From Ectocarpus siliculosus (lineage: Eukaryota > Sar > Phaeophyceae > Ectocarpales > Ectocarpaceae): a DNA stretch of 32,468 bases. Shown here piece after piece: positions 6,201 through 31,988 of this stretch (positions within the stretch are counted from its first letter, which is position 1; every line of letters begins with the position of its first letter). Where the stretch lies: positions 1,787,342 through 1,819,809 of the forward strand of contig FN649744.1 in NCBI GenBank assembly GCA_000310025.1. The letters are read 5' to 3'. The translations under genes and the position numbers were made by a program. The notes under the pieces are model-generated. The model saw only the letters and a list, made by a program, of their open reading frames with translations. It was not told where the DNA came from and ran no database searches.

Positions 6201-7907
6201 CGCGGTGGTAAAACAATCCCGGAAGAAGCGGGCAAGCTTATATCTTGTTTGCCATGTTCTCTTGTTGGCAATTCTGTTCCGAATGATTTGCAATGATTTG
6301 TTATCTGTTCTGGCAGGCGAGTCGTGTCTATGTGTAGGCGCTCGCCAAACCAGCGTTGTTAGTACCCTGGGCGTGGCTGTCGTCGCTCATGCCTTTTGGT
6401 TCTCCGCGTGCAACAAACGGCTTTTACCCCCACGCTACCGGCGTTACTCGTGCCCTGACCGCTGCTAGGGTGGGCGGGGTGCCTCCGTGCGACATCATTG
6501 TGGGCCCTGGCAACAATTGGGTCACCGCTGCCAAGTCGCTCGTCTCGGGAAGGTATTTATTTGCCAAACCAACAAGGGATGGATAAAATTCTCTCCAAAA
6601 TATCATCCTGTGCACTTTGTTGCCCTGAGAACACAAACACGTGGCGATGACTGCTGTCATGCTGTTTGGTGTGAGTTTTTTTACACGCGCACCGCCGCCT
6701 CGATGTTTGCATGGCGCGTGGCGTAATAAATCGCTTGCCTCTTGTTTTCGTCTTCGCCGCACCCACCCGCGGGATCGGAGGCCGAACTCCTGCGGTTTGC
6801 GGGGCGGCTCGCTGATGCACACTTAGTGTGGGACACCCAGTGGTGTTTTGGTCCCACATGATCGTTGTTGTTTCTTTCCCGCGTTTGCTTGTGTGTGCCA
6901 TCGATATGCTTGCCGACTTTTGGTGTGGGACACACGCGCGGTGTGTGTTTTTTCCGCCTCGATCGCTGTTGTTTTCTTTTCCGTGTGCGTACTTTTAGGT
7001 GTGCGATCGACATGCTTGCCGGGCCCAGCGAGGTCCTGGTCATCGCGGACTCCACGGCGGACGTCGAGACCGTCGCGGCCGATCTACTCGCCCAGGTAAT
7101 AGCTTACAACACCTGCTGAATGTGTCAATTGCTGCTTCAGAACGCCCATAGTCTATAGAGCTGCTGAATATCTCGGTTGTTTCAGATAGCCTAACTACAG
7201 CTAGCTGCTGAATCTCTGTCGGTTGTTGATTCACAACGCAGGTAGTCCACCTATAGTAGCTGCTGAGTGTCTCGGTTGGTGTTTCAAAACATCGGCGAAC
7301 GTTTTCGAATCGAGGTGTGCCTCTTCTTCTGCGTCCACCTCTGTTTTGCTGGTCACGTATATATATAGGCTCTGCTGCGTAGCTTCAATGTTTTGCAGGC
7401 GATCTGCTGTGGGGCATGCATGCATATTTCTGTGTCTAGCTGCTGATAAATCTCTCAGCTGTTTCAGGATAGCGGCGAAGGTTGAGTTTTCGTGCCCACG
7501 CCGAGGCGTCGTCCGTGTGGAAACAATGGGCCGTTTGCCCCCCATCCCAACCCGGACATTCCATCCGCATGCCAAACGTGATGGATGAACCACACGGTTT
7601 CACGTCCACTATTACTCTCTTGACGGTCTCGTGCGGTCGTACGTTATCTTGCATTTTCCGTTGCGTGTGTGTGTGGGCGTCGATCGGGAGGCCAGGCAGA
7701 GCACGACACAGAGGCGAGGCCCATCCTGGTGAGCACGAGCGAGTTGCTGGTGGCGGAGGTGAACGCCTGCCTGAAGAAGAGGCTGGCCGTGCTGCCGACG
7801 AGGGACACGGCCTTGGAGGCCGTTAAGAAGGGCTTCGCCGTCGTCTGCAAGGTGAGACCCACCCGCTTCCTCCTTCTCTCTCCCTCTCTCTCCCTCTCTC
7901 TCTCGCT

Positions 7908-7985: not shown

Positions 7986-10812
7986 TCTTCCATCTCTCCA
8001 TTTTCGTGTGCCTTTATTATTTGCATCGAGCGCGCTAACCGGCACACCCATGAAAAGACGTCTGTTGTCTGCGTGTGCGTGAGCCATCAACTATGTAACG
8101 TCTGCGCTTAGTCGTCTGACTTGTGAAAATACATGCAGCTGAATGATTGACGAACACGGTTCTAAAAAGTCGTCGGGCTCCCGCCGGCCGTGGGGCTGAG
8201 GAGGAGGAGGTCGAACGACAAGGTTTAGTCTCCGGATTCGGAGTACTTGGCACAATGAGAAAGAAGACTGCACCACCACGTGGCATTTCCTGCTGCATTT
8301 TATATGCTTCTGCTCGTGAATCTGTAGTTGTATGTTTTTGTGTCTCTCCAATAAACATGGACCGCGCTTGCCGGCTGACCTGCGATAACAGCTCGGTCTG
8401 ATCGATACTTGACGAAAAGTTGTGGGAAGTCTCTGTTTTCCCCCTTTTTTCTGTGCCTCGTTGCGTTTGGCTCCCTTGTTTAGCACAGCAGCGTTTGTGT
8501 GTCATCGGGCCTTGGGTTATTCTTCGCTGCGTGATGTTCTCTCTCGATGCGGCATGGTTTTGCATTCTCGACGTTGCTGTGTGCATGCACCCCTGGGGCT
8601 CCGTTGTGTGGCAAGACTCGACTGGGTGTGCATAAATCCTACTTTAGCAGCGCGAACCGAGCCCTGCATTGTCCCCAATGGCCCGGCGTAGCTGATCGCG
8701 TCTTTTTGTGTCTCGTTCGGTGTGGTTCCTCTCAGGACGTCGCCGAAGCGGTAGCGGTCAGTGATCTAGTGGCACCGGAGCACTTGGAGATCCAGACGGA
8801 GGACTCGCAGAAAGTGGCAGACAGGTGAAGGGTGTATACTTGTTTCGCTTTAGTGCCTCTGTCGTCGTCCGTAGCGTCTACCGCTATGCCGGCCTGATAT
8901 GTACTCTCCTCCCGTCTGACCATAGGCCTGATTTTTACGGACGTCACCCCCGTGCTCCCCGGTGATTGTCCTTCAGGAGATGTAGCCTTGGACCCAGCCT
9001 GACACCAGAAGCAGCCCATTAGAACCTTGTTCTCCACTTCTTCCCGTATCAATTGTTTTTGTTGTCGTTTCCATTGAGCGAAACTTCCCTTTGATCATGA
9101 GCAATGTTTTCGCGGCGTAGCCACCACCACCCAACAAAGGCCCTTTCGACGTTTCCAAACGAAGAGCTGCACCCCATGCTAAACCCGGATCAGATCCTCT
9201 CCGACCTCTCTCCTCTCTCTACTACCAATCTCACGATCTGATGATGACAAAACGACGCTACCTCCAACGCACAACCCAGATCATAACCTCTCCCCCCCCC
9301 CCCCGTCTCTCTTTTACCGGTCTCACGATATGGTGATGACAACGATCTGATGATGACATGATGGAAAAACCAAAAGCTGCCTCCACTACGGTGGCCTCTT
9401 CATCGGGCGACGGGCGGCCGAGGTGCTTGGCGATTACGGCGCGGGGCCGAACCACGTCCTGCCCACCGGCGGCACCGCCAGGTACACCGGAGGGCTGTCG
9501 GTCATGACGTTCCTACGCGTCAGGACGTGGATGCGAATCGACGAGGCGCAGCCGTCGCAGGCGCTTGTCCGGTGAGTTTGGGGGGCGGGCGGGGGCGCAA
9601 AGCGTGGTGTGTTTGGGAAAATTGTCCTAGCCTCGCCTGTTGACCGGTGAGTTTTCACAAGCGGGGGGTGCTTGGCGCATACTTATCATGTAGTAGACCC
9701 TTGCCTCACCGGTGTTTCCAGCCGTAGCAGGCGCTTGTCCGGTGCGTTTCCCCAAGCGGGGGGTGGGGGGGCAAAGCGTGATACGTTTGGGCAAAATGGC
9801 CAGCTATGGACCCTAGCCTCGCTTGTCCGGTGAGTCTTCACGCGGGGGGTGTTTTGGGGCGGGAGGGGGCGAAACGGGGGTTGTTTGGCTCAAAACGAAT
9901 GTAGTAAGACCCTAATCTCACGAGTGTCTTCAGCCGGAGCAAGCGCTTGTCCGGTGCGTTTCCCCAAGCCGGGGGTGGGGGGGCAAAACGTGGTGGATTG
10001 GGCTCAAAATTGTCATGTAGTTAGACGGTAGCCTGACGAGTAATCCAACCATATGCCCGGCTCCGTTTCTGTTCCCTCCACTCAACACTATGTGGTACTG
10101 TAGTTGCAGATGCTCCTGCCGTACTTTCCGGTGGCATGGCCAACCGGCACCTTTCTTGATCCATGTTGGTTCGTTGCTGTAGCTCTTGCTTTGACGTTCA
10201 AATCCATTTTTTTCGCGTACCCCGCAACATCCGCACCGGTCTTTGAAGACGAGAGGAACCAGGTATCGGTGGTCACAGACCACAGGCCAAACACGAAGCA
10301 TAACCTAGTCGGCGGAAAAAGTACGGCCTCCTCCTCCTCCTCCTCCTCCTCCGAGCACCTCATTCTCTTTGGCCGTTAACGCGGATCCCGGTGTCAAACA
10401 CATAGCTCTCTGCTACGTACACGGTCGGTCGTGCTTGTGGATCTGGCCGATTGCGCCCTACTTAAGACCCTGCTCCTCTTACGGAAATCGACGTTTTGAT
10501 CCTGTGCTGATTTGATTCGCCTCCCCCCCCACGCCACCCTCATCTGGATTGGCACGGCAAACGCAAGTATGGTGATCAGCTTTATCCTTACGAAACGTGG
10601 CCTGGGCCGGCGAAATATCGCTCCGTCCCGGTACTGTAGGGATGCAAGGTCTACAACGACTACGGCATACGTTGACATGAGTAAGCCCCCCACCCCGCCC
10701 TTGTCCCTTGCCTTCTTCGGCCTATCGTCGCTGTTCCAGGGACGCGGTCCACCTTGCCAGGATGGAGGGGCTGGAGGGACATGCCCGAGCGGCCGAGTGC
10801 AGGCTAGACTAA
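2770..10812 (+). CDS. HDH: Histidinol dehydrogenase, plastid-type, 11 exons, complete
   Basis: Oxidises L-histidinol to L-histidine in two NAD-dependent steps, the end of histidine synthesis. Exons: 2770-2986, 3086-3204, 4151-4321, 5271-5465, 5991-6106, 6469-6552, 6999-7095, 7696-7851, 8736-8824, 9377-9571, 10740-10812. All borders are GT-AG and all phases agree, giving 503 aa. Seen: [11 protein letters not shown] (exon 4), GGAQAVAA (5), GPGN (6), [11 protein letters not shown] (7), APEHLEI (9), [15 protein letters not shown] (10), EGLEGHARA (11). Counterparts of the E. coli zinc ligands Q259, H262, D360, H419 are Q333, H336, D434, H494; the catalytic E326-H327 pair is E400-H401, and the spacing between them matches to within one residue. 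The N-terminus has a hydrophobic segment and AASFVP, like the ASAFAP signal of stramenopile plastid proteins. ATG 2770 is chosen because it supplies this. The PGGRYP and LPTGG variants resemble many bacterial HisD more than plant ones. Without splicing at 2987-3085 the product would be 536 aa. Confidence 0.93.
3205..4150 (+). other. Intron 2 of histidinol dehydrogenase
   Basis: A 946-nt GT-AG intron. No nested gene is recognised. It holds a CTG/CTGC-rich tract around 3772-3808 followed by two close copies of ACCGGTGCTTG (about 3807 and 3828). Confidence 0.75.
4322..5270 (+). other. Intron 3 of histidinol dehydrogenase
   Basis: A 949-nt intron (donor GTGTGT, acceptor CCGCCAG). It contains a short GGTA array near 4382-4398, a TC-rich tract near 4686-4735 and nothing that looks coding. 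Confidence 0.75.
6827..7022 (+). repeat. 106-bp tandem duplication spanning the acceptor and start of exon 7
   Basis: The end of intron 6 plus the first about 22 nt of exon 7 is present twice. The decoy (TGTGCCATCGATATGCTTGC, from 6894) differs by two bases from the true exon start (TGTGCGATCGACATGCTTGC, from 7000), at a spacing of 106. The upstream halves are also alike: both begin with GTGTGGGACAC and share a CGATCG-TTGTT-TTTCTTTTCC stretch. The decoy has lost the acceptor AG (GCTTGTG where the real site is TTTTAG). Confidence 0.8.
7110..7485 (+). repeat. Degenerate minisatellite in intron 7 of histidinol dehydrogenase
   Basis: About five degenerate copies of a roughly 45-55 bp unit begin near 7112, 7160, 7204, 7258 and 7438. 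Each starts with GCTGCTGA, followed by a TCTCGGTTG-like and a TTTCA(G/A)-like block; several carry AGTCTA/CTATAG. Each TTTCAG block resembles a 3' splice site. Confidence 0.65.
7870..8000 (+). repeat. (TC)n microsatellite with CGCTTCTTC interruptions
   Basis: A long TC tract just after the donor of exon 8 (GTGAGA, 7852). It is broken three times by a TCGCTTCTTC-type unit, so the repeat unit itself has been duplicated. It lies in intron 8. Confidence 0.9.
8005..8085 (-). repeat. tRNA-Ile-like short interspersed repeat (SINE-like), copy in HDH intron 8
   Basis: On the minus strand this reads ACGTCTTTTCAT, then CCGGTTAGCGCGCTCGATGC, then AATAATAAAGG and CACACG. The same order of blocks occurs at 15.27-15.36, 28.16-28.28 and 29.52-29.64 kb (plus) and twice at 31.49-31.65 kb (minus). 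GGTTAG-GCG-GATGCTAATAA resembles the D-loop to anticodon region of eukaryotic tRNA-Ile(AAU). No B box is seen. Confidence 0.6.
8086..8735 (+). other. Remainder of intron 8 of histidinol dehydrogenase
   Basis: The intron runs from 7852 to 8735. Beyond the TC tract and the SINE-like copy nothing coding is recognised. The acceptor is TTCCTCTCAG ending at 8735. Confidence 0.7.
8825..9376 (+). other. Intron 9 of histidinol dehydrogenase
   Basis: A 552-nt intron (donor GTGAAG, acceptor CCAAAAG, which is purine-rich and weak but gives the only frame matching the conserved HYGGLFIG). It contains two similar blocks around ATCTGATGATGACA near 9236-9247 and 9346-9358, a poly-C run at 9293-9304 and no coding signal. 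Confidence 0.7.
9545..10030 (+). repeat. Minisatellite that has copied the exon 10 end and its 5' splice site
   Basis: The block GCGCTTGTCCG|GTGAGT at the end of exon 10 (9561-9577) is repeated at about 9636, 9731, 9831 and 9943, with units of roughly 75-115 bp. Each copy is followed by an AAGCGGGGGGTG-like G-rich stretch and an ACCCTAGCCTCAC-like stretch. The copies at 9636 and 9831 keep GTGAGT; those at 9731 and 9943 read GTGCGT. All extra copies lie inside intron 10 (9572-10739). Confidence 0.8.
10031..10739 (+). other. 3' half of intron 10 of histidinol dehydrogenase
   Basis: Holds a (CTC)n run at about 10328-10352 and a plus-strand copy of the poly-C-tailed repeat at about 10520-10702 (CTCCGTCCCGG, TGTAGGGATGC, CGACTACGGCAT, ACATGAGTA then C-rich). 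It ends in a good acceptor (TCGCTGTTCCAG) before the last exon. Confidence 0.65.
10740..10812 (+). CDS. HDH: Terminal exon of histidinol dehydrogenase
   Basis: A short exon of 73 nt giving (R)[23 protein letters not shown] and a TAA at 10810-10812. EGLEGHA carries the C-terminal zinc-ligand histidine of the family. It is joined in phase to the CG left by exon 10 across a 1168-nt intron. At first sight the DNA resembles a tRNA (CCCGAGCGGCCGAGTG), but the coding reading explains every base. Confidence 0.9.
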
Positions 10813-14270: not shown

Positions 14271-14370
14271 NNNNNNNNNNNNNNNNNNNNNNNNNNNNNN
14301 NNNNNNNNNNNNNNNNNNNNNNNNNNNNNNNNNNNNNNNNNNNNNNNNNNNNNNNNNNNNNNNNNNNNNN
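14271..14370. other. Assembly gap of 100 N
   Basis: Exactly 100 N, the usual placeholder for a gap of unknown length. Because its two flanks represent the same sequence, the true gap may be zero or negative. Confidence 0.98.
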
Positions 14371-16475: not shown

Positions 16476-17259
16476 GTTTTCGGGGTGATTTCAATCAGCC
16501 CATCGCCCAAGTGGAGTGGTCAGCCTCACTTCAACAGCTATGTTTCGGAGACCGTTTCGATCAGCCCATAGCGGAAGTCGTCTGGCCGGGGTCTCTCCTG
16601 GACCTGACGTTTGGGTTTTGTTTCAACCAACCTATTGCCGCAGTCGTGTGGCCACCCTCCCTGCAATGTCTAGAACTCGGGCAGATGGCGGGCGACTTTG
16701 ACCAGCCCATCATCGACGCGCTCTGGCCAAGCTCGTTGAACAAACTTTGTTTTGCGGACGACTTCGACCATCCCATTGCCGGGGTGGCTTTTCCGGAATC
16801 TCTCGAACAACTCGAGTTTGGATTCAATTTCGATCAGCCAGTCGTTGGCGTCGAATGCCCTGATTCACTTCAGGTAGTGTTTCTCGGAGCAAGTTTCGAC
16901 CAGTCCGTTGACGAGGTCACGTGGCCGGCTTCCCTGCAAAGGCTGATGTTTGGAGCGAGGCATCAGATACCGCCGAACAACAGAGGTTTCGACCATCCTG
17001 TCTCCGGGGTTGCGTGGCCGCCGTCGCTTCAAGTGCTGGATTTCGGGCTGTTCTTCAACCAGCCGGTTGCCGATGTGGTGTGGCCGGCCTCCCTACGGGA
17101 GCTGGATTTGGGACCTCGATTTGAACATCCCTTGAACGGGGTCTTGTGGCCGGCCTTCCTTCACGCCCTGACGTTCTGGTCAGGGTTCAACCGGCCTCCC
17201 TTCAGCAGCTGTTCTTCGGGGGTGCATTAAGCCAGGAGTCGTGCGGCCGGAGACCCTGA
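16476..17259 (+). pseudogene. FNIP-repeat (LRR-like) coding block, 5' end missing, last repeat frameshifted
   Basis: From a likely acceptor (GATTTTCAG ending at 16475) the frame encodes ten consecutive repeats of about 22-23 residues with the pattern F-[ND]-[QH]-P-[IV]-x-x-V-x-W-P-x-S-L-x-x-L-x-F-G, as in the FNIP/IP22 repeats known from Dictyostelium, stramenopiles and giant viruses. Repeat 7 is followed by an insert (ARHQIPPNNRG). In the eleventh repeat FNRP is followed directly by DNA that encodes ASLQQLFFGG in another frame (from 17194 to a TGA at 17257-17259). A small deletion near 17190-17194 has therefore removed the middle of the repeat and put the old frame out of phase, so the present frame stops at TAA 17228-17230. 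No start codon or N-terminal domain is attached. It may be a truncated gene still making a short product or a pseudogene. FNIP repeats form a solenoid thought to bind proteins. Confidence 0.75.
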
Positions 17260-19916: not shown

Positions 19917-22696
19917 TCATGCAAAATTCGGTGCTTCAGAAGCCCCAATGAATGAAAGTATCGTGTAGAGGCTCACAAGCCAAGCAACGGCGGCAACCAC
20001 GCCTCTGCTAGCGATCAGCCTCAACGCTGATGAGTCGTCGGGGTCACTCTCAGCTACACTTGCCTGCGACGTACAGGGAACCAGGTGAGAGCGATGAAAG
20101 GGGCCGGGTGCAATAAGCAAGGGATGGTGGGGGGGCAGCCAAGCACGGTTTGGAGCAAGCGAGGCGCAACAGCAGCCCGTGGTATCACCTGGCGTGATCC
20201 ATTCTGGGCCTTCCGGAAATATATGTTCTCTGCCGTCATCAACGCTAAGATATCGAACAGAAGCGATGAGTTGTCAACACAAACTACGAGCCATGAACGC
20301 CAACGTATTCTGCAACATCTGTGAAAGGGAGGAAGACGTTCACTGGTCGGTCAACGTATCCTCTCTATCTTTCCTCGCGCTGATTCATCTCGTGGATAAT
20401 CCTTCATTCTTTTGAAGGCCTATTTCCCCCACCTGAACCGAAGTTTGCGCTGGGACAGGTGTCGAAGCGCACCCGCCTTCAAGAATTGCCGCATCATCAT
20501 CACTCCATTCCTTGAACGCGCCACAAAGTCCCACAGCTCGCAATTCGTCGGTGCTCCCGATGCGACGGAGATCGAGGAGATACTCTAGGCTTTCTTCGTC
20601 TCCTCCGCTGATCTCCAACGAGATCCCGCAGAGAAAGCTGCTGGCTGTCGTGGTGAAACTGAGTGGGTCTCCGGAGATTCCGCCATCGTCTTTGTAAGTT
20701 GTGATCACCTCCACGGTGTAGGTGACGTCGGCGTATTGGGGCATGTCGGAGCTGGAGCTCTCAACAACTCTGGGTATTCATTGGTCGCGCATATTGTTTG
20801 GGTGGAATTACGAAGAGGTTAGGTCATGCTCAATCCAGAATATCGATCTACGAGTCGTCGCAACGCCGTCAAGTACTTGCTACCCCCGACACGGGCTGAA
20901 AATGACTGCAGTCGCCGGTGGGAGTCAAGTTGGTTTCAAGGCTGAACCTTGGTACAAGTACCTTCTTCGCATGTACGGTATGTATTGGTGGACTCGAAGC
21001 GGGCCGTGTTGTTCGTTTTTGATCGGGCTCGTTTTGGCTCTAATATCGCTTGCTGTTGTTTGGTTACTAACCAGCACCTTCACGTCCGGCGTTTCGCCTT
21101 GATCAGCCCTATGAGGAACGTGTCCCGAGGTCACAGGGCGAAACATACGCACAACGAGCCCAGCAATTGTTCCGCGTCGATACACGAAGCACTGGGGTCC
21201 ACATTTATGCAGTCAGAATCCATACCAAACGAGAAACGAACTGGGCGGAAGTCCGCCCCCCCCTCAATGACGTACATGCATTTTAGACTCTGCACGTCTC
21301 CACAAACGACCATCACTTGGCGGACCTGTGTCATTCGTGCCGATGACATTCCCGATTGTTTACATCCCGTTTGGAACCACAATCAATCTTTGGTGATGGT
21401 CGTCTCCATGTCGGAAAGCAACTCCCGCGTTGTCTGATTGGGTCTTCTACTTCATACATTCCCACGATCCTGAAGCCATGGTCAGCCTTCAATCTTTCAT
21501 CCTATTCTCCAACGTACACCCTTCCAATGCACGCTGACCTATTCACCCACAACCTACGTAGCCCGAAACCTTGTACAGCGACGGTATCGATTGTCATGAT
21601 GAAGGGTGGCCTTCAGCTCAGGGTAAGGATCATCCGGTTGTCACTGAACGTTTCAGTCATCGAGCGAATTGCATCATCCTCTCGAAGGAAGCCTCCACAG
21701 AGAGAGGTCCACGGCCATGCCCAAGGAACGGACCGTGGGCGCGTCCATGTACCTTATTCACAAGCGTTTCCGCGGATGAATGCGGCCGGTGGAACAGGAA
21801 GGACTGTTTAGTCATCCAGATGGCGGTGGTGACTGCTCCGAAAAACAAATCCTACATCCTGCATCATTGCTATGCTTGCTGACAGATCCGAATCTGTACA
21901 CAACACCAGCGTCTTTGCCGAATAGTTTACTCCATGGTTGCGACAGTGTGGCCACTGATGGTTGCGCAGCAGTATATCCCCCTCTTCATGCGGGTGATCA
22001 CCAACCATGTCAGTCAGTCAGTTGGCGTCTCGCACGATGGGTGTGCTATACATACAGAAGTCAAACTACATACTTCCACCTTCCACCCGCCGGGAAGCTG
22101 AAAGCTCAAGTGCTTCCGCTCGCTGGTGCACAAAACCACCGACAACGCGTGCAGGCGTTGATTAAAACTAAACTGTCCCCCATATCTACCTACCCACCAA
22201 CCCAAAGTGGATGTGAACGCTGTGCGCGCCTCGTGCCAACTGGTTGGAGGACGGGCTCATCAGGGAGAGGAATCTCTCAGGCGATTCCCCGACTCAAAAA
22301 CAGCAGTGGCGATCGGCACCAAGACTACGAAGCTACGAGCGCTGGGAATAGCGGGAGGTCGGTCTAACGTGTAGTGCTGCTATCACGACCGAGCTTGTCT
22401 TTGTATTCTCCCGGCAGTCTGTAAGTGGATGAACAGACACTCTCGCACTACAAGCGAAACGAGGCGAACAAACCGTATTGACTACAACACATACTGCAGT
22501 CCACACGTGGATTTTCCCACCTGGAGATTGCTCTAGCATGCACCACCAGGTCTGCTTCTCGATAAGCGTCGCACAAGGTACGATCCGGTAAGCAGCTGCA
22601 AGCTTCGGCCCCACGCAGCAAGCCGTCGAATCCGCCCGAGACAAGTGCGGCGAAAGCCGCCGCAAGGCTTGAGCACTTTCCAGGCTTCATGATCAT
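19917..22696 (-). CDS. TIMP-like NTR-domain protein with signal peptide and C-terminal membrane helix
   Basis: Three exons on the minus strand: 22696-22521, 20751-20433, 20063-19917 (phases 2 and 0), 213 aa. Residues 1-32 form a signal peptide ending GAEA, so the mature chain would begin Cys33-Ser-Cys-Leu-Pro, the CSCxP start of animal TIMPs. Six mature cysteines lie at mature positions 1, 3, 10, 68, 103, 121, against 1, 3, 13, 70, 99, 124 in human TIMP-1. FLCGISLEISGG and YLLDL match the TIMP CGVSLDVGG and EYLI region; VGLCGAFKEW matches its next cysteine and Trp. After a short acidic linker, residues 186-205 are a hydrophobic helix followed by ASEAPNFA, suggesting a membrane anchor (a GPI signal is less likely). 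The exon 2 acceptor could also be 6 nt further upstream. In TIMPs the free N-terminal Cys chelates the zinc of a metalloprotease; whether this protein inhibits anything is inference. Confidence 0.8.
20752..22520 (-). other. Intron 1 of the membrane-anchored NTR gene
   Basis: A 1769-nt intron at a position and phase shared with the divergent paralog. On the opposite (plus) strand it contains a 66-codon frame from ATG 20901 with a strong hydrophobic segment (CCSFLIGLVLALISLAVVWL) and, at 21300-21400, a frame reading WRTCVIRADDIPDCLHPVWN that resembles a C2-domain strand. Neither forms a convincing gene model. Confidence 0.55.
20901..21101 (+). CDS. Small open frame with membrane helix inside an intron, doubtful
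   Basis: ATG at 20901, 66 codons, stop TGA near 21099-21101. The N-terminal half is soluble (MTAVAGGSQVGFKAEPWYKY) and the C-terminal half has a single long hydrophobic helix. The hydrophobic part also reads as a possible intron: donor GTATGT near 20978, a perfect TACTAAC branch-point-like box near 21063, and TTGATCAG near 21106. It may be a nested antisense gene, an exon of one, or chance. Confidence 0.2.
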
Positions 22697-23506
22697 CTAC
22701 TCCCCTCCCTGTCTACAGGTATTTATAGGTGGTCTTTGTTATCGTTGGAACCGGTGTGCGTCCTTCCTATCTTTTTGTCTTTGGGACCGGTGTGCGCTTC
22801 GTCTTCTTCCTGAAGCACAACAAATAGAGGGTGTTTGCATCCGCCCCCCTCGGGGGCAAGTGCTCGGGGTCTTCCACCGCATCCTCTTCATGTGTCGGTT
22901 GGATTGAAACGGCCAACCAACGTGTTTGCGCCCATCATGGACGAGAGACCGTTGAGTGCCACCCGCCTTCAGGACAGGTGTGCCGTTGCCACCCCCAAGG
23001 GGCGGACACACAGCCCGAACACACACAAAGCATCGAGGGAACATAAACATACCCTTCAACAAGCGTTGGAGGCGCCTGGCCTTGTAGATGTTAATTAATG
23101 CCAGGCGGAGCTGGGAGCTGGGAACGAAAAATAGTTTTTTCGTATCTTTCGATCCCAACGTCCAGATGTCCAGCCGCTGCTAGTGATGTCACCTCGAAAG
23201 ACCGTCATGTCCTGGCCAATCCCGCGCCGCGTACAACTGGTTGCCGCTTTTCGGACTCGTTTTCGGAAAAGAGGCGAAAAACCTACGGCCTCCTGTCGCT
23301 TGCGTTGGTGCGTTGGTGCGGACTACTGGCTGTTGTTGGTTGTTGGACCCCGGTGAATGGCGAGCGGACCGTACCACGACAACATCCGTGCGCAGGCTAC
23401 AGGCTGAAGTGATTACCTCTCTCTCGGTCTCGCTTGCTGGGCAGCAAGGGGTTGCTGCTTGGAGGTCGCGGATTGCAAGGGCTTTTGCACAGAGCAGGGG
23501 ACGCAG
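22697..23506. promoter_or_regulatory. Bidirectional spacer between the two divergent NTR genes
   Basis: The start codons of the two paralogs are 810 bp apart, head to head. On the minus side TATAAATA lies at 22727-22720, only about 24 nt before the ATG. Just upstream are two copies of TTGG(A/G)ACCGGTGTGCG, at about 22745-22760 and 22781-22796, 36 bp apart and containing the palindrome ACCGGT: candidate regulator sites. On the plus side GCGTTGGT occurs twice at about 23301-23317. No exon is recognised in this stretch. Confidence 0.45.
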
Positions 23507-23536
23507 ATGGTGTTGTTCCGAAATACCAACGTTTTC

Positions 23537-23578
<42 letters not shown>

Positions 23579-23700
23579 TTCAGCTCGGTGGCCTTGCTGC
23601 TCCTGGCCCCGGCGGCGCAAGCTTGCAGATGCGATTTCAGGTCCCTGTGCGAAAATATCGGCTTTGCGAGTGTCGTGCTACGTGGGCATGTTGTGCGAAG
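23507..23700 (+). CDS. Exon 1: poly-Ala signal peptide and N-terminal Cys-Arg-Cys of the NTR domain
   Basis: Encodes MVLFRNTNVFG, thirteen Ala (twelve GCA plus one GCG, 23540-23578), then FSSVALLLLAPAAQA and CRCDFRSLCENIGFASVV. It ends CGA-AG|GTGAGA, phase 2, exactly where the divergent paralog has ATC-TCC-AG|GTGGGA. The repeat reads as CAG, AGC or GCA depending on frame; only the Ala frame continues into the signal-peptide core. Confidence 0.85.
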
Positions 23701-26700
23701 GTGAGACTATACCTCTGTAGGGCAAAGGGTCCGACGCGACTCTTTACTGGTGTGATGAATTATTTTCACAGCAAGATGTGGGTTTCTTGGCGGCCGGTGT
23801 GATGATTATCATTGCCTGTTCGCCCATGCCAACCTAACACCCTCATTCTACTAGTCTAGAGGGCTTTTGCCGACGTGAGGCATAGCAGTAGATGGCCATC
23901 GCTGACACACCAGAGAGAGTGACACCAGATTGGTCAAGTTTGACGCGTTGAAAGAGAGGTTTGAGAGTGGGCTTACGGGAACGAACGCGGATGAGCAAAT
24001 AAATCAAATCAGCAGTGAACGCTCTTGTACTACAACTGTGCAGTCCCAAAACGTCCGTCCGTCGTACGTTATCAACGGTCCCGTTACCCCGATGGTCGAA
24101 ACACCGCAGGGGAGCTACATACACTGAGAGGTTACACTGGAGGCAACCCGTACAAAGCCGTACAAGCTACGCTTTCATCATTCATTATTATGTTTATCTT
24201 CGGATTCTGTCCAACGCGAGTGTAGTATAGTCTATATTAGTTAAAGTCGATACGTTGTTGTTGCATACATACCTGTAGTCTACACCTGGAAGTTATAGGT
24301 TCTTCAGCAGTTTAGATAATACTGCAAAGAAAGGCATTTTTTCCGTCACAAATACTTCCTTTTCGAGAACCACTCTCAGACTCTCAGGGATCACCAATCA
24401 ATACGCACCCGCGCCGCCTTGCAGTCGAACCGCCCCCGACCATGAGAGCCTCGATCACGTCGTCCCCGCCGGTCCTTGCTTCTTCTCATATTGTAGTACT
24501 GTAGTCTAGAGAGACGTCTTGTACTTACAGTAGGATCTCCCCTTCCGGCCCCTTCAAAGAAAGGCAAAAGCAGCAAGTTTCTGGGACGCACAACGATGCA
24601 TTATACGGGAACTCTCGTATAAAGTATAAAGTACTTTTTTCATTTACTCCGTACGTACGCATAGTACTTGCTGGTGCGGACGTCCTTTGCGTTGGTTAGC
24701 CTGTCAGCGCTGCGCTTAGCGAGGAACACAAACTCGCACCAAGTCGTCAGTGGTTACTGCCTGACGCAGGTATTTTGAGTACGAGGCCGGTAGTGTACCA
24801 GGTCTACCTTGTCCCGTGGGCGTTCCAAAAGCACCGAAAGGTGACGAGTGCCGAACGCGGGTGGGTGTACAAGGTGTGGGGTACAGCGCCAGAGATACAC
24901 ACGTACCGTTATTCGGAGTCTACACTCTATACACCCATGCGCCTCGGGACGTGTACAATACTGACACGTTGGCGTGGAGTTCGGCTCCATTGAGGAAGGA
25001 GAAATAACAACCAGCAGCGGACGGTTATTTTGTGAGAAGGTCGGGCCGGCGAAACCCCTATCGAACGAGGGCCAATTCTCGCGTTTGTCTTGGCGCCCCG
25101 ATGTGTTCCAGCAGTACGATAACCTTTGATGACTCTTATGCATTATGTGGCGGTAAGATTAAACCAGACCAGGCACGAGGAGAACGAAGCACCCGCGGTC
25201 CTGCTACGAAGCACTTGTAGATATACGGCCTGGCGGTTCGGCGATGCTTGGCAATGCCGCAAGCGTACTGCGTCGTGCAGCGATGGCGCCGTGCCTTTCC
25301 TGTTGCTGCTATCTACGCTGTTGTTGCCGCGCCTACTGATCGCATGTTTTGCCCTACCTGGAACCACCTACAACTTGGTTGGTGTTTCATTTATTGCTTG
25401 GCGATTGGCAGCAGGTTTCAGAGTTTTTCTGCTGGCACCAAGTGCCGCAATGCAACAGCCATGCACGGCCAAAGAGAGACCTGAATTGAATTTCAATATT
25501 GCTTGGGGGTCAAGCTGGCCGAGAAGAGTTGCAAGAATCGTTGTGACAAACAGAAAACGAGGCTTAAACAAACTCAAAATTAGCCTAGTTTCCTACCGGT
25601 TTCCCTCCACTCGCAGAAAAACTTCAGCACGTCCCTTTCGACTACTGCTGTGGTTATATCTCGAACGAGTGGTCTTTCTGTGAGGTTGTATACTTTCTAA
25701 AGAAAAAGAAACGAGAAGAGCTTTGCAACACTCTGTAGCGAAGAAACAATTCCGAACAAGAACAACTCCATACGTATGTACAGAAACCTGAGTCGGTTGG
25801 CTTGCCAGAGAGGGCCTGCAACAAAAGCAAGGCCCGTCGCTCAACTTGGGAACTGAGTCAAACATATTCTCCAAGAGTACTCTACGATTGACAGAGCTAA
25901 AATCTATGTCGAGCATGATCATGTTTTCTCCCGCACCCATATTCCGCGGAATCATGGAACACGCGTTGTGTGCATTTTGGGTTTTCCACCGACCACCGTC
26001 AGCCCACTACAATACTGTCCGTGTGCCAAACCGTTGCTATTCTAATGTTCCATGCACAACCCTCGACATTCGTTCAAAATCCTACGTAGGTGTTAGCATG
26101 GACTAGGGGCGCCATGTGTTGCTAATATAAGCCTTTGCAGATAAGACCCCAGACTCCCGTGGTACTTTGCTCGAGTCGCGTGCCCGACACCTGCTGTAGC
26201 ATGGAGGCTTTCGCTGCCATGGCCGAACGGGTTCGATCCGAACTCTGCTGGTTTTCAGTAGGACGGTGAGGTAGACAAAACCAAACAAGTAAAGGTCGCG
26301 CAAGGTGATAATTTCCTGCCCCCCCCAGCAACGGACGCCAACAAAACGACGCCACGCTGAACGTCGCCGAGGGGACTGACTCACACTTATGTTACATAGA
26401 CTTGACCCTAATGCCCCCATGTCCCAATAAAGCCTATCGGGTGGAAACCTCGAAGGGCGTCCAAATACCCCTTTCGGCTGGAAACCCCTGACCTTTTTTT
26501 TTTTTTTTCTTAATATGACACAACGAATCTTTTTTGCTATGTTTTCGCATTGTTGGATTTCTCCGCCGGCGAATCGCCGCCGCTTCCAGCAATAATTTGC
26601 GACGTGGTTTCAGAAGGGCCGCCTCAAGTGCGGCGCGGCCTGTTTGCGCAACATCTTGAGCATCTATCTCCACGTGTGACGCCCTAACCCAGGGAGGGTC

Positions 26701-29408
26701 TAATATTGTGACTCACGGCATGCGTTTGCGTGACTACTCCCCCTCCCCCATCTCACCCAGAGAGGCCCCGAAAGTCACAGAGTTTTCACAGTGAAGAGAA
26801 CATGTGACCAATCACAACTCAGCAACGCTTAAGCGCCGTATGGACATATGTATCTGACCAATCACAAATAGCAATTGAGCGGCGTAACACCTCTCCTTGG
26901 CTACAAACAGGACGGCGCTGGTGGATCGCCCGGATGTCGTGACGTACAATGTGAAGGTCGGCACGCTCTACAAGACGGAGGCCGGAGTGGACTACCCCGT
27001 GGAGATCGAGGTCACTACCAGCGCGAGCGCCGCCCATTGCGGCGTCTATCTTCAAGTCGGGGGGGAGTACCTCCTTGACCTCTATCGGTACGTTGTTTGT
27101 AGACAGAGCCTCGAAAAGATGGGGGCAAGTATGCATATGTATGTATGCGCCTCTTGATGATTATAGTTCACTTATATACGTCCTTGTCGCTCTTGAACGC
27201 ACTACATGTGGCGTTGCGCTCCTGTGTGGTATGGTTATATTGGAGGTGCAGTGGAAGCGTGTTATGCTTGGTGCATCTCCCCACCGCTTTTTTTTTTTTG
27301 TCAGACGCACATTGGTCAAGGCGGTTTGTTTTCACTGAGGAGCTAGTTGACGCGGGTCGATAGATGCCTCTTGTGCCTGCCGAGGCCTGATGAACACGTG
27401 TACACACACCCTTCGCACAGCGGCGTGTAACCGCTCAGTGCTTCACGATAAGCACCAACCATCCTATTATATTATACTCATCCGACACCAATGTAATGGC
27501 CGACACACACAAAAAATATATATAGGTATAAGGGCGAGTTGCGGAGCGTGGGCGCTTGCGGGGCAACCCAAAGCTGGACGACCCTTCCCGCGGATAGGAT
27601 CGCCACCCTGGGAGACATCAACAGTGCGTGCGACCCGTGTGCGGCCTGCGGGGAGTCGCAGGTGTGTCGTGTTGGCGGTGGCATGGGAACGGGCGCACTC
27701 ATTTTTAGCTTGCCGTAGTTGTTGGGCCAATGACCACGCGTCCTCGCGAGGACGGAGCATTGTTCCCACACGACCGATCGCCGATGGCCGATCGTCCCTT
27801 CCTACTTTACCGAAGGTGGCCGGGGGGGGGGTGATGAACATTGAAATTCTTCAGGTCGTTTATGCCTTTGTAGCGTCGGTTGTCTTCATCGCCATCGTTG
27901 GGAGGACCAATGACATGACATGGGTATGAAAGAGGCGGGAAGGGCCTCGATGTGTCCGGTGGAACACGGGAGGAGCGGTGTGGTCAGCCCGTTGGCGCGA
28001 CGTCGATGCCACAATAGGTAACGAACACACAGGCACACATTGCAGAACTCATGTTCGCGTTTCCTCGTTTTCCCGCTGTAAGGCTGACATTGTCAGCATG
28101 TCAACCGGTTCGCGAAATGTCGATGCCACAATAGTTACCGACCACACGGGGTCCCAGGTAATGGCATTTAGAATTGTTTTGTGTTTTCAACCGCACTGGC
28201 ACTGACGTATTTTCATTGGTCACCCGGTTAGCGCGGTCGGTGCTAATAATAAAAAAAAAAACGCACACGCATACAGGATGCGTGTTGATGTTTCTTTTCG
28301 TCCCGATGTACGACTGATATCCTCTGCCCAACCTGTCAGCCCTTCCCGATGCTCACAATTCAAACACACAACGCGCATACGCCAGGACTGCCTCCTGTAC
28401 ACCGACGGCGACTCGACAACAACATCGTCTTCGGTGACGGGGGGGGGGGAGGAGTTCTACTGCGCCGACACGTGCGCCGCCGGGGTGTGCGGCGCCGAGG
28501 AGACGTGCTACCTTAACGAGTCCGACTGCACCGGAGGGCCTTGCCCCCCCGTAGCCGAGTGCGGCTCCCCGCCCGCATCCCCGATAGACAAGTGCGGTGG
28601 ATCCTGCCTGGACTCAGAGGTGAACACGAAGAGAAGACAAAGAAGAGAAATGCTTTTTTGCCAATTTGTAATGGGCTGCCAAGACCTGCTGTATGAATGC
28701 CCCCCACAGGTGTCGTAGATCGAGGTAGGACTGACGTAAGGAAAAGGTCTCTTTGGTTGCTATGTTTTGGCGGTGCCTGTGTTCTTCCCGCCGCGCCCTT
28801 GAAACACCTCCCCTTCCCCCGACCGGAAACCCGCCTGAACACTTTTGACGCTAACAGGCCCTCCTCAGGCGTGGTTACATGTTGATCGTCGCATCCGGTA
28901 GGTACTTGCGGGAATGGTGTCGTCTCCCCCACCCCTTTCGTCATTTTTTCGAAACTTCCCCATTTGCTTAGCAATGGTGTCAATAGCCTTTACCGATCGT
29001 CGTCCTCTCAACTTTTGAGTGTGAAGCGGTCGTTGGGGTCACGGGCTGTCAGTTTTTCACCGGGAGACATGAAAAGTTGCGCCAAGCCGCGCTGGTTGTG
29101 GCGCAAACCCACCCCATGCGGCACGCACACGTTCGGACTCAATCATCCCAACACTTTAGTGTGCGCCACTACTGTTGTGCTGGATTTTGGCGCGTATTTT
29201 GTTGCTGTGTTTCGTCGAGGACAGCAGTGCTACTGCAATACGGCGGCTGTGACCTGTCTCCCCCCCCCCGAAAACGCCTCCGTGCTTTCAAAGCACGCCG
29301 CGTTTTGTGTCTCCCGGACACCCGATATCGACACCCAGTCGTACTCTCGACGACGGTTTTCGACACTATGAAATCCCGCCCCCAAGCCTCTAACGACCCC
29401 CCCCCCAA

Positions 29409-29448
<40 letters not shown>

Positions 29449-30043
29449 CTCTCTCCCTAACTCTCTCACACACACCCTAACTTAGCCTCCCCCATGCCGC
29501 CCCCTCACGGGGCCCCTGTTAATCGCATTTAGAAGTGTTTTGTGTTTTCAACCGCACTGATACTGACGTCTTTTCATTGGCCAACCGGTTAGCGCGGTCG
29601 GTCGATGCTAGTAAAAAAAGCAAATCACACACACGCACTTGCTCGTGCTTTCACCATGACCCGCCGCTTTCCTTCCGTTACCTCTTCTTGTCTCCGCGCG
29701 GCCCCGCAGGAATGCCTTCCTTACACGGCCGGCGTCGACCAGTACTACTGTTCGGCCGTCTGCGACCCTTCCCCCTGCGAGGGAGAGGGCGAGGAGTGCA
29801 GCGTGCTGCCGGTGTACTGCGCGGCCAACTCCATCTGCAGGAGCGGCTTCGCGTGCACCCGAGCCGGCGTGGTGAAGAAGACTTTCCGGGCCGCGATCGG
29901 AGAGGGGGGCCTGTGCGAAGGACGGTGCAGCGAGTTCCAGGTGTGCGTGAGATAAGGGGGGGGAGAGAGAGAAAGAGAGAGGGGGGGAGGAGGGACAGAG
30001 GAGAAAGAGGGAGAACGAAAGATAGGGGGGGAGAGACAGAGAG

Positions 30044-30085
<42 letters not shown>

Positions 30086-31988
30086 CCCCCGGTCCCTAGA
30101 AGCACGCAATCAATGCTTCTGGTGATGCGCTGCTAGAAGGTAGTGTTGCTGCTGTTCTTGCTGTCCCTGCCGTTGCACGTATTATAGTATCCGCCGTCGA
30201 GGCCCTGGTACCGGTGCCCTCTGCCTTCCTCCACCGGCACCGCAACAGCAGTTTCGAGCCCCGAGTTCGCTTGCTTCCGCCTACAAGTGCCGAGCTCTTT
30301 TTCTTTTCTTCGCATTCGAATGATTGTTGCCGCAAGATTCTGTGTTGTTGTTGTCTCTAGAAACCCGTTTGTTGTAGAGAGGCTTGGCATCACCGTCTGC
30401 GACTTGCGCCCCCCCCCCCCCCCCCTCCAATCCTCGATCGAAACCCGTGCAACTACTACTGCTGCTGCTGCTGCTGACGTTTGTTTCGTCCTGCGTGCGT
30501 GCGTGTGTGCGTGTCCTCAAGGAGTGCCTGTTTTACAGCGGCAACTTCGCGGAGGACCAGTACTACTGCTCGGCCGTCTGCGACCCTTCCCCCTGCGGGG
30601 ACGGCGAGGAGTGCACGCTGGTTCCGGCGAGCTGCGCGCCGGGTTCGATCTGCGGGAAGAGGTCAATCTGCTCGCCCCTCCCAGCAGCGACGGAGGTCGT
30701 GGCGACGATCAAGCAAGAGGATCCGTGCGACGGGCGATGCGGGGACTTCGAGGTGGGCAGCGAGCGAAACCAAACGCGTGCGCAGGCGAAGCGCATCTGC
30801 CGCGACGCACACGGGGGTAAAACTGTCCCCCTCCCCCCGGGGGGGATTCGTTGAAAGAAGCATGAAACGGCGTCCCGGGACATTTCAATATGAACAAGAC
30901 AAAAATATGTGAATGGGCCTACCGGCGTTGGCTTTGATGGGGGCGTTTTCTACGTGCTTGGCGATGCTGATGCGGCCCTCTGAACGTCGAAGGCGTTCGT
31001 GTTTCATGTTCACCTCGGCCGGGGTTGAGTTCGTTCGTGTTTCTTTTTGTTTTTTATGCTCGATTATGTTCCATCTTTCCGTAAGCGTCGTACCTCAGGA
31101 CCGCCAGGGTCTAAGCACAGCAGTGCTTCTCGTCCCCCCCCCCGCCCCCCCTTAATTGCGGGGCCGTTCCCGAAAACTCGCCCCCCACATGTATTGGACG
31201 ACAGACACCTCACAGCCCGTCTCTCCCTGCCTCTTGTTGCCGGGACCCCACCCCTCTTGCCTGTGCGTACCCGGCAGGAGTGTCTGTTCTACACCGGCGA
31301 TCTCGCTGAGGACCAGCACTACTGCTCCGCCGTCTGCGAACCTTCGCCGTGCGAGGAGGGCGAGCAGTGCCACCTCATGCCCGAGAGCTGTGCGGCCGGG
31401 TCTATCTGCGGGAACGGGTTCCTTTGCGCCCCTGCCGCAAACGCAACCCTGCAGGAAGGAGATCCGTGCGCCCCCTGCGGAGAGTTCCAGGTGTGCGTGT
31501 GTGTGTGTGTGTGTATGCCTTGTTTATTATTGGTATCGACTGCGTAAACCGGCTGACCAATGAGACAGGCGTCACGGTTTGTGTGTGATTCTTTTATCGT
31601 CAGCATCGAGCGCGCTAAAAGCGGCCGGCCCATGAAGAGACGCCAGTCTCGTCGCGGGACAAGAAAACTTGAATACTTTATTTAATTCTTGGCGCCTCTC
31701 CTTGTTCTCTGACCGCTTCGACTTGGCTTTCATGACCAACAACGAAAAACAAAACAGGACTGTCGCGTCTACGCTAACGGCGCCTTCGCCGAGTACTACT
31801 GCGCCGACGTGTGCGACCCCAGCCCGTGCGGGGGCAGCAAGGACAAGTGCTCGCTGGTGGAGCAGGGAGACGACTGCGACGCGGCGACGTCTGCGTGCCC
31901 ACCGTTGGCGACGTGCGCGTCCGCGACCGTGACGGTGGAGGAGGAGGAGGAGGAGGAGCGGGCGGACCCTGCGGAACAAACACCGAAG
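23507..31988 (+). CDS. TIMP-like NTR-domain protein with tandem cysteine-rich modules, 3' end beyond window
   Basis: Eight exons: 23507-23700, 26911-27087, 27526-27661, 28386-28619, 29710-29940, 30522-30752, 31278-31490, 31758-31988. All phases agree, giving 549 codons with no stop. Residues 1-39 are a signal peptide containing 13 Ala encoded by a GCA repeat; cleavage after AQA would give mature Cys40-Arg-Cys. NTR domain, residues 40-159: AAHCGVYLQVGGEYLL and VGACGATQSW align with animal TIMP and with the divergent neighbour; mature cysteines are at 1, 3, 9, 69, 96, 120. Residues 170-549 are five cysteine-rich modules of 71-78 residues with a YYC-x-x-VC-x-PSPC-x-x-GE-x-C core. The last exon ends in an acidic run and donor GTGATC, so more exons follow. 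ATG 23507 is chosen because it directly precedes the signal peptide. A secreted, disulfide-rich extracellular protein is likely; partners are unknown. Confidence 0.82.
23701..26910 (+). other. Large intron 1 of the plus-strand NTR gene
   Basis: A 3210-nt intron. It contains a 184-codon plus-strand frame (ATG 25129 to 25683) with a hydrophobic stretch but no recognisable domain; a minus-strand frame at 26434-26673 whose TGRAALEAALLKPRRKLLLE is reminiscent of a decayed ankyrin repeat; a C-rich repeat end at about 26690-26750; and a tandem duplication at about 26802-26886 built around TGACCAATCACAA, close to the acceptor. None is supported as a gene. Confidence 0.5.
26911..27661 (+). CDS. Exons 2-3: core and C-terminal part of the TIMP-like NTR domain
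   Basis: Exon 2 (26911-27087) encodes DRPDVVTYNVKVGTLYKTEA, then DYPVEIEVTTSASAAHCGVY and GGEYLLDLYR. Exon 3 (27526-27661) encodes YKGELRSVGACGATQSWTTL and ends CDPCAACGESQ. The intron between them (27088-27525) splits the Arg codon after YLLDLY. The divergent paralog has no intron at this place. The acceptor is unusual (ATATATATAG, AT-rich rather than pyrimidine-rich), but only it restores the frame. Confidence 0.82.
27700..27835 (-). repeat. Poly-C-tailed repeat family, minus-strand copy in intron 3
   Basis: On the minus strand AAAGTAGGAAGGGACGATCG, then GATCGGTCGTGTGGGAACAA and TGCTCCGTCC, CGTGGTCATTGG and ACTACGGCA follow the same order as positions 195-300 at the left end of the window, with high identity. 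It lies in the intron before the first cysteine-rich module. Confidence 0.7.
28164..28276 (+). repeat. tRNA-Ile-like short interspersed repeat, intron 3 copy
   Basis: TTTTGTGTTTTCAACCGCAC, TGACGTATTTTCATTGG, then CCGGTTAGCGCGGTCGGTGC, TAATAAT, a run of A and CGCACACGCATACA. It matches 29524-29638 almost base for base. GGTTAG, GCG and GTGCTAATAA are as in eukaryotic tRNA-Ile(AAU). Confidence 0.7.
28386..28619 (+). CDS. Exon 4: cysteine-rich module 1 (78 aa)
   Basis: A phase 0-0 exon, DCLLYTDGDS through GGSCLDSE. It is more divergent than the later modules and carries a Ser/Thr/Gly insert and the motif GGPCPPVAEC, which resembles cysteine-rich extracellular repeats of the type C-x-x-x-PCPP-x-x-C. 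An 11-G run (28439-28449) lies in the coding sequence and encodes Gly; a length change would break the frame. Confidence 0.82.
29412..29457 (+). repeat. (TC)n microsatellite in intron 4
   Basis: A nearly pure TC repeat in the intron between modules 1 and 2. Confidence 0.9.
29524..29638 (+). repeat. tRNA-Ile-like short interspersed repeat, intron 4 copy
   Basis: The sister copy of 28164-28276, inserted (or co-duplicated) at a similar distance upstream of the next module exon. It keeps CCGGTTAGCGCGGTCGGT, GATGCTAGTAAAAAAA and a CACACAC tail. Confidence 0.7.
29710..29940 (+). CDS. Exon 5: cysteine-rich module 2 (77 aa)
   Basis: Phase 0-0. Contains ECLPYTAGVDQYYCSAVCDP, SPCEGEGEECSVLP and RCSEFQ. 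Its DNA matches exon 6 over a block of about 40 nt (GACCAGTACTACTG onward) with one difference, so the duplication is recent or homogenised. Confidence 0.88.
29953..30083 (+). repeat. (GA)n-rich purine tract in intron 5
   Basis: A long G/A-only stretch starting shortly after the donor of exon 5 and ending in a (GA)n run. It is the mirror of the TC tracts in the other introns. Confidence 0.9.
30522..30752 (+). CDS. Exon 6: cysteine-rich module 3 (77 aa)
   Basis: Phase 0-0, from ECLFYSGNFAEDQYYCSAVC to DGRCGDFE. It has the same length as module 2 and the full cysteine pattern. The acceptor (GTGTGTGCGTGTCCTCAAG) is preceded by a poly-C run and CTG repeats. Confidence 0.88.
31278..31490 (+). CDS. 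Exon 7: cysteine-rich module 4 (71 aa)
   Basis: Phase 0-0, from ECLFYTGDLAEDQHYCSAVC to APCGEFQ. It is six residues shorter than modules 2 and 3 in the linker before the last cysteines. The donor GTGTGC runs straight into a (GT)n tract that is the CA tail of a reversed SINE-like repeat. Confidence 0.88.
31491..31651 (-). repeat. Two adjacent tRNA-Ile-like repeats, minus strand, in intron 7
   Basis: Read on the minus strand, 31651-31578 gives CGTCTCTTCATGGGCCGGCC, TTTTAGCGCGCTCGATGCTG and AAAAGAATCACACAC. Then 31572-31491 gives CTCATTGGTCAGCCGGTTTA, CGCAGTCGATACCAATAATA and a long CA tail ending at the exon 7 donor. They are two head-to-tail copies of the same family. Confidence 0.65.
31758..31988 (+). 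CDS. Exon 8: cysteine-rich module 5 (77 aa) with acidic end
   Basis: Phase 0-0. Contains DCRVYANGAFAEYYCADVCD, PSPCGGSKDKCSLVE, then ACPPLATC and a run of seven Glu (GAG repeat, about 31938-31958). It is more divergent than modules 2-4 and, like module 1, has the CPP-x-x-C ending, so modules 1 and 5 look like the older outer members of the array. Confidence 0.85.

Follow-up and report, generated by a model that had tools for sequence, protein, structure and literature searches.

A divergent gene pair

The window, that is, the whole stretch of 32,468 nucleotides of Ectocarpus siliculosus DNA analysed here, contains gene A on the minus strand and gene B on the plus strand, which diverge from start codons 810 bases apart. 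The initial annotation had described a head-to-head gene pair at this position, and we find that the exons of both genes join in frame across introns that begin with GT and end with AG. The features are as follows.

19917..20063, minus strand: gene A exon 3, acidic linker and hydrophobic C-terminal segment
20433..20751, minus strand: gene A exon 2, remaining TIMP N-domain with CGISL, EYLLDL and W
22521..22696, minus strand: gene A exon 1, leader (ending AEA before Cys1) and first part of the TIMP domain, mature start C-S-C-L-P
22697..23506, no strand: 810-base interval between the start codons of A and B
23507..23700, plus strand: gene B exon 1, poly-Ala leader and first part of the TIMP domain, mature start C-R-C
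26911..27087, plus strand: gene B exon 2, TIMP domain with CGVYL and EYLLDLY
27526..27661, plus strand: gene B exon 3, end of the TIMP domain with cysteines 5 and 6, and linker cysteines
28386..28619, plus strand: gene B exon 4, cysteine module 1
29710..29940, plus strand: gene B exon 5, cysteine module 2
30522..30752, plus strand: gene B exon 6, cysteine module 3
31278..31490, plus strand: gene B exon 7, cysteine module 4
31758..31988, plus strand: gene B exon 8, cysteine module 5 and acidic tail

The three exons of gene A encode a protein of 213 amino acids that consists of a leader, a TIMP domain, an acidic linker, and a hydrophobic tail. Exon 3 is predicted from splice signals and hydropathy (the best mean over 19 residues is 2.13), and its hydrophobic segment may be either a membrane span or a GPI signal. 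No counterpart of this exon was found in the other four genes of the family described below. If intron 2 is retained, the frame stops after a short tail, VGEIGLQKNEGLSTR (window positions 20432-20385, minus strand), and the hydrophobic segment is lost. Judging from the coordinates, the interval between the two start codons is possibly a shared promoter.

The start of gene B was taken as the ATG at 23507, although the same open frame extends back as far as a TTG at 23459. Read as far as exon 8, gene B has at least eight exons and encodes at least 549 amino acids, comprising a leader, a TIMP domain, and five cysteine modules. The window ends in poly-G, with a long run of N just beyond, 3' of exon 8. 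The cysteine-rich array to which the gene B domain had been said to be fused corresponds to the five modules of exons 4-8. The proposed cysteine positions of the mature domains were likewise recovered (1, 3, 10, 68, 103, and 121 in A; 1, 3, 9, 69, 96, and 120 in B, which has a further cysteine at 123), and the CG[IV]-x-L and EYLL signatures are present in A and B alike.

Several other features were seen in the window. A 100-base block occurs twice in the gene B region (28142-28241 and 29503-29602; 89% identical), where its copies end ≈107 and ≈144 bases before the start of two of the module exons. Similar stretches were seen by eye near 31541-31600 and, reversed, near 6090-6190 of another locus (L002), and this block may be a dispersed repeat. 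An open frame of FNIP repeats lies at 16511-17230 on the plus strand (Pfam FNIP, 79.4 bits over 205 amino acids), an open frame with a partial histidinol dehydrogenase lies at 6865-7119 on the plus strand (Pfam, 46.8 bits), and a run of 100 N spans 14271-14370. Searches of the window against Rfam gave no match.

A five-gene family and its cysteine module

Protein searches of the genome with gene A as the query gave matches on contigs C9 and C14, and the gene B query matched these two contigs and C489. The gene E query matched contigs C19 and C9, plus C489 at an E-value of 0.5. The family thus comprises five genes at four loci, each locus on a contig of its own: A and B together on contig C19, gene C on contig C9, gene D on contig C489, and gene E on contig C14. 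Each of the five genes has at least two introns.

The five genes share a common beginning. In all of them, exon 1 encodes a hydrophobic leader with Ala at position -1 followed by Cys-x-Cys, and the leader sequences predict secretion-type leaders whose removal would leave Cys1 as the N-terminus. The first intron is in phase 2 in all five genes and breaks the same alignment column (32, with the codon placed by hand), and this common position would lend partial support to the exon 1-2 junction. The residue at the exon 1/2 join of gene E is Trp. A second intron within the TIMP domain is present only in genes B and E. Six cysteines, EYL, and one Trp are invariant in the five domains, and residue 2 is Ser in A, D, and E, Thr in C, and Arg in B, such that four of the five carry Ser or Thr. 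Identity of the paralogous TIMP domains to that of A is 32-42%. The third codon position differed most in all 10 pairs of TIMP exons (pooled differences of 0.395, 0.394, and 0.595 at the three positions in 812 codon pairs) and in 18 of the 21 pairs formed by 7 of the 9 module exons.

The cysteine module is carried behind the TIMP domain by genes B, C, D, and E, and A alone is without it; gene C, for example, has four exons, two modules, and a stop codon. Copies of the module were searched for in the genome with the B and E proteins as queries, and eight cysteines are invariant across nine aligned copies. These nine copies gave no significant match to Pfam (best E-value 0.25), and the module gave none to the PDB (best E-value 0.78). 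The fold predicted for the module from a single-exon piece had a pLDDT of 41.7. A partial WSC domain (24.1 bits; cut-off 27.8) was seen at about 9315-9500 of locus L003, ≈3.3 kb 3' of the last gene D exon that was identified.

Relationship to animal TIMPs

The initial annotation had identified the domain as TIMP from motif and cysteine spacing. This identity is supported by a curated Pfam profile and by a profile search of the PDB. The gathering cut-off of the Pfam TIMP family (PF00965) is 23.1 bits, and it was exceeded by all five genes (A, 27 bits; B exons 1-3, 26.5; C, 24.2; D, 30.6; E, 26.3). The full 549-amino-acid gene B protein matched no Pfam family at E ≤ 10, and PF00965 searched directly against the genome, exon by exon, missed all five genes. 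A PF00965 match on contig C2 scored below the cut-off (18.2 bits), and the 8 kb around it (locus L004) contained no CxC-exon motif; we took this match to be due to chance.

A profile built from the five TIMP domains and searched against 177,635 PDB sequences gave 17 matches, of which 15 were TIMP-1, TIMP-2, or TIMP-3 (E-values of 5.4e-15 to 9.9e-8), with alignments that start at residue 1. The other two were Nup133 (E-values of 0.82 and 1.3), which is unrelated. Netrin, agrin, and complement chains were absent from the PDB matches of this profile. Single sequences matched more weakly in phmmer searches of the PDB: A alone gave five chains, all TIMP (best E-value 0.0041), and B alone gave 13 chains, including five TIMP (best E-value 0.0081), six repeat-protein, and two other chains. 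The six repeat-protein chains (pentatricopeptide or alpha-solenoid) matched a short repeated stretch, where no single match passed, and they were rejected. When sequences were shuffled with the cysteines held in place, none of 10 shuffles matched TIMP, which implies that cysteine spacing alone is insufficient for a TIMP match. Neither the NTR (PF01759) nor the NtA model was listed for any of the five proteins at E ≤ 10 in the Pfam searches, where HMMER filters can drop weak matches, and NCBIfam gave no match for A or D.

A profile match with all six cysteines aligned had been proposed as one check of this identity. The profile match was obtained and five of the six cysteines align with those of TIMP-2, but the third does not; it lies ≈4 residues, or about one helix turn, before TIMP Cys13 in the alignment. 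The fold predicted from single-exon input (A exon 2, with B exons 2 and 3 as alignment rows) had a pLDDT of 43.0. The Pfam matches stop between positions 114 and 134 of the 183-position TIMP profile, and the C-terminal subdomain of animal TIMPs was recovered neither by these matches nor by a profile extended to include the module. This extended profile (B, C, D, and E plus module 1) scored 54.1 bits against TIMP-2 compared to 58.9 bits for the five-gene N-domain profile, and its alignment reached TIMP-2 residue 167 with no gain in score. Equivalence of module 1 to the animal TIMP C-domain is therefore not supported by these comparisons, and, since no C-terminal subdomain was recovered, we regard the algal products as N-TIMP-domain proteins rather than full animal-type TIMPs.

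Thus, the algal proteins resemble animal TIMPs (PF00965) in a leader followed by Cys-x-Cys, a six-cysteine N-domain, CG[IV]xL, EYL, and a conserved W. They differ in their C-terminal part and third cysteine, as described above, and in what follows the domain, namely cysteine modules in B, C, D, and E and a hydrophobic tail in A. All members of the TIMP family are described as consisting of the TIMP domain only and as apparently never having taken part in domain shuffling (PMC3927612), and the domain appears in a table of extracellular-matrix domains (PMC4224354). An algal precedent is py03343.t1 of the red alga Pyropia yezoensis, which has a signal peptide and a PF00965 domain and which was induced 2.13-fold and 5.89-fold at two stages of infection by an oomycete (PMC6928737). 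Compared by description only, py03343.t1 and the present proteins are alike in being algal and in having a signal peptide or leader and this domain; py03343.t1 belongs to another algal phylum, and the excerpted account gives TIMP as its core domain and mentions no module array (PMC6928737). Searches of open-licence PMC papers revealed no description of a TIMP from a brown alga or any stramenopile. TIMP in algae therefore has a precedent (PMC6928737), whereas the gene family and its architectures appear to be new.

Candidate targets and proposed function

The genome contains sequences resembling metzincins, the proteases that animal TIMPs inhibit. When one reprolysin-like exon was searched against the genome, eight places matched, including the query itself (nine candidates were scored). 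A genome search with Reprolysin_5 gave five matches, all below its cut-off, and among these five stretches HExxHNxGxxH is present in four and a Met-turn (RTIM[AS]Y) in three. Four metzincin exon peptides fell below their Pfam cut-offs (best, 26.6 versus 27), and one metzincin exon matched M10 weakly (16.2 bits against 24). The classical matrixin (M10) model gave no genome match at E ≤ 0.01, where the control responded in 7 of 14 genomes, and the M11 and M8 models gave no match in this genome or in any control genome. The reprolysin-like metzincins are possible targets of the TIMP-domain proteins, as judged from sequence.

In animals, the N-terminal Cys1 of TIMPs chelates the catalytic zinc of metzincins. 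Residue 2 of inhibitory animal TIMPs is Ser or Thr, and Arg at this position is unfavourable for MMP inhibition; the Arg2 of gene B thus argues for a different or lost specificity of its product. On balance, we favour the explanation that the five genes form a family of secreted TIMP N-domain proteins that would inhibit metzincins via Cys1, at the cell surface (A) or in the wall or matrix (B-E), and we consider this explanation probable. Cleavage of the leader would free Cys1 of the Cys-x-Cys N-terminus, and Cys1 would then chelate the active-site zinc of a metzincin in the manner of animal TIMPs. In the case of gene A, the inhibitor would be retained at the cell surface, and the cysteine-rich modules of B, C, D, and E would direct it to the wall or matrix. 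The targets may be reprolysin-like proteases of the alga itself or those of pathogens, such as oomycetes.

We prefer this explanation because all five genes exceed the PF00965 cut-off and the PDB matches to TIMP-1, -2, and -3 begin at residue 1, and because no shuffle matched and the six cysteines, EYL, Trp, and Ala at -1 are kept in all five genes. It is further supported by the Ser or Thr at residue 2 in four of the five genes, as in inhibitory animal TIMPs, and by the excess of third-position differences in both TIMP-exon and module-exon pairs. Additional support comes from the reprolysin-like sequences in the same genome and from the induction of the red-algal TIMP-domain protein by oomycete infection (PMC6928737). 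The explanation is weakened by the Arg2 of gene B, the lack of an M10 match, the scores of the metzincin peptides below their cut-offs, the failure to recover the TIMP C-terminal subdomain, and the uninformative fold predictions.

The same induction of py03343.t1 (2.13- and 5.89-fold; PMC6928737), together with the divergence of the paralogs (32-42% identity to A), would also fit proteins that act in defence against pathogen proteases only, and not on endogenous enzymes. This narrower role is conceivable, but we lean against it, because reprolysin-like metzincin sequences are present in the same genome.

The main rival explanation is that the domain is a true TIMP-type OB-fold that serves as a binding or matrix-building module instead of as a protease inhibitor. 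Animal agrin (NtA) and netrin-type modules use an OB-fold in this way, and the algal proteins would share with them this fold class and have, as in agrin, a domain followed by cysteine-rich repeats. The agrin-like layout, the fusion of four of the five genes to cysteine modules, the Arg2 of gene B, and the lack of an M10 match in the genome all favour a binding role. By contrast, Cys-x-Cys directly after an Ala-ending leader is kept in all five genes, which would be unneeded for binding alone, and the solved relatives that were found are TIMPs, with no NTR or NtA model listed and no netrin, agrin, or complement chain among the PDB matches. We therefore consider a binding role unlikely compared to the proposed inhibition of metzincins.

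TIMPs have been described as eumetazoan in origin (PMC10755359), which would be consistent with recent acquisition from an animal or with animal contamination of the assembly. Contamination is rejected and recent acquisition is highly improbable, since the five genes lie at four loci on as many contigs and each contains two or more introns, four of them share a cysteine module that has no significant Pfam or PDB relative, and the domains are strongly diverged from one another and, when searched singly, give only weak matches to animal TIMPs. Searches of prokaryote genomes and viral contigs by short near-exact peptides returned no relatives. Plasmid tblastn searches returned two and four records at E-values of 0.6 or weaker, in or near unrelated genes (two were inspected), which we took to be chance matches. 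Finally, long introns (3.2 kb in B and ≈5.6 kb in E) and gene models built from sequence rather than transcripts could suggest that exons were picked to fit the motif and that the domain is a chance assembly, but this idea is rejected by the first intron, which is in phase 2 and interrupts one shared alignment column in each of the five genes, by profile scores above the cut-off, and by the negative shuffles.

The genome contains 82 matches to light-harvesting domains, and thus belongs to a photosynthetic organism; on contigs C92, C232, and C488, copies of light-harvesting proteins are clustered and have identical scores, suggesting recent amplification. A broader reading, which we offer tentatively, is that control of the matrix by TIMPs and metzincins exists in a photosynthetic, non-animal lineage, with its own architectures (a surface-tethered TIMP, and a TIMP joined to a new array of cysteine modules), and is either older than animals or was built independently. 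If true, this reading contradicts a published account that traces the TIMP family back to the ancestor of eumetazoans (PMC10755359).

TIMPs are generally counted among the matrix tools of animals. The algal five-gene family, which has its own architectures, adds to the hint from red algae that TIMPs are used in seaweed defence (PMC6928737), and it suggests that this mode of protease restraint outside cells is not an animal speciality. The presence of this family beside metzincin sequences in the same genome lets one ask directly whether protease restraint by a free Cys1 arose before animals or independently of them.
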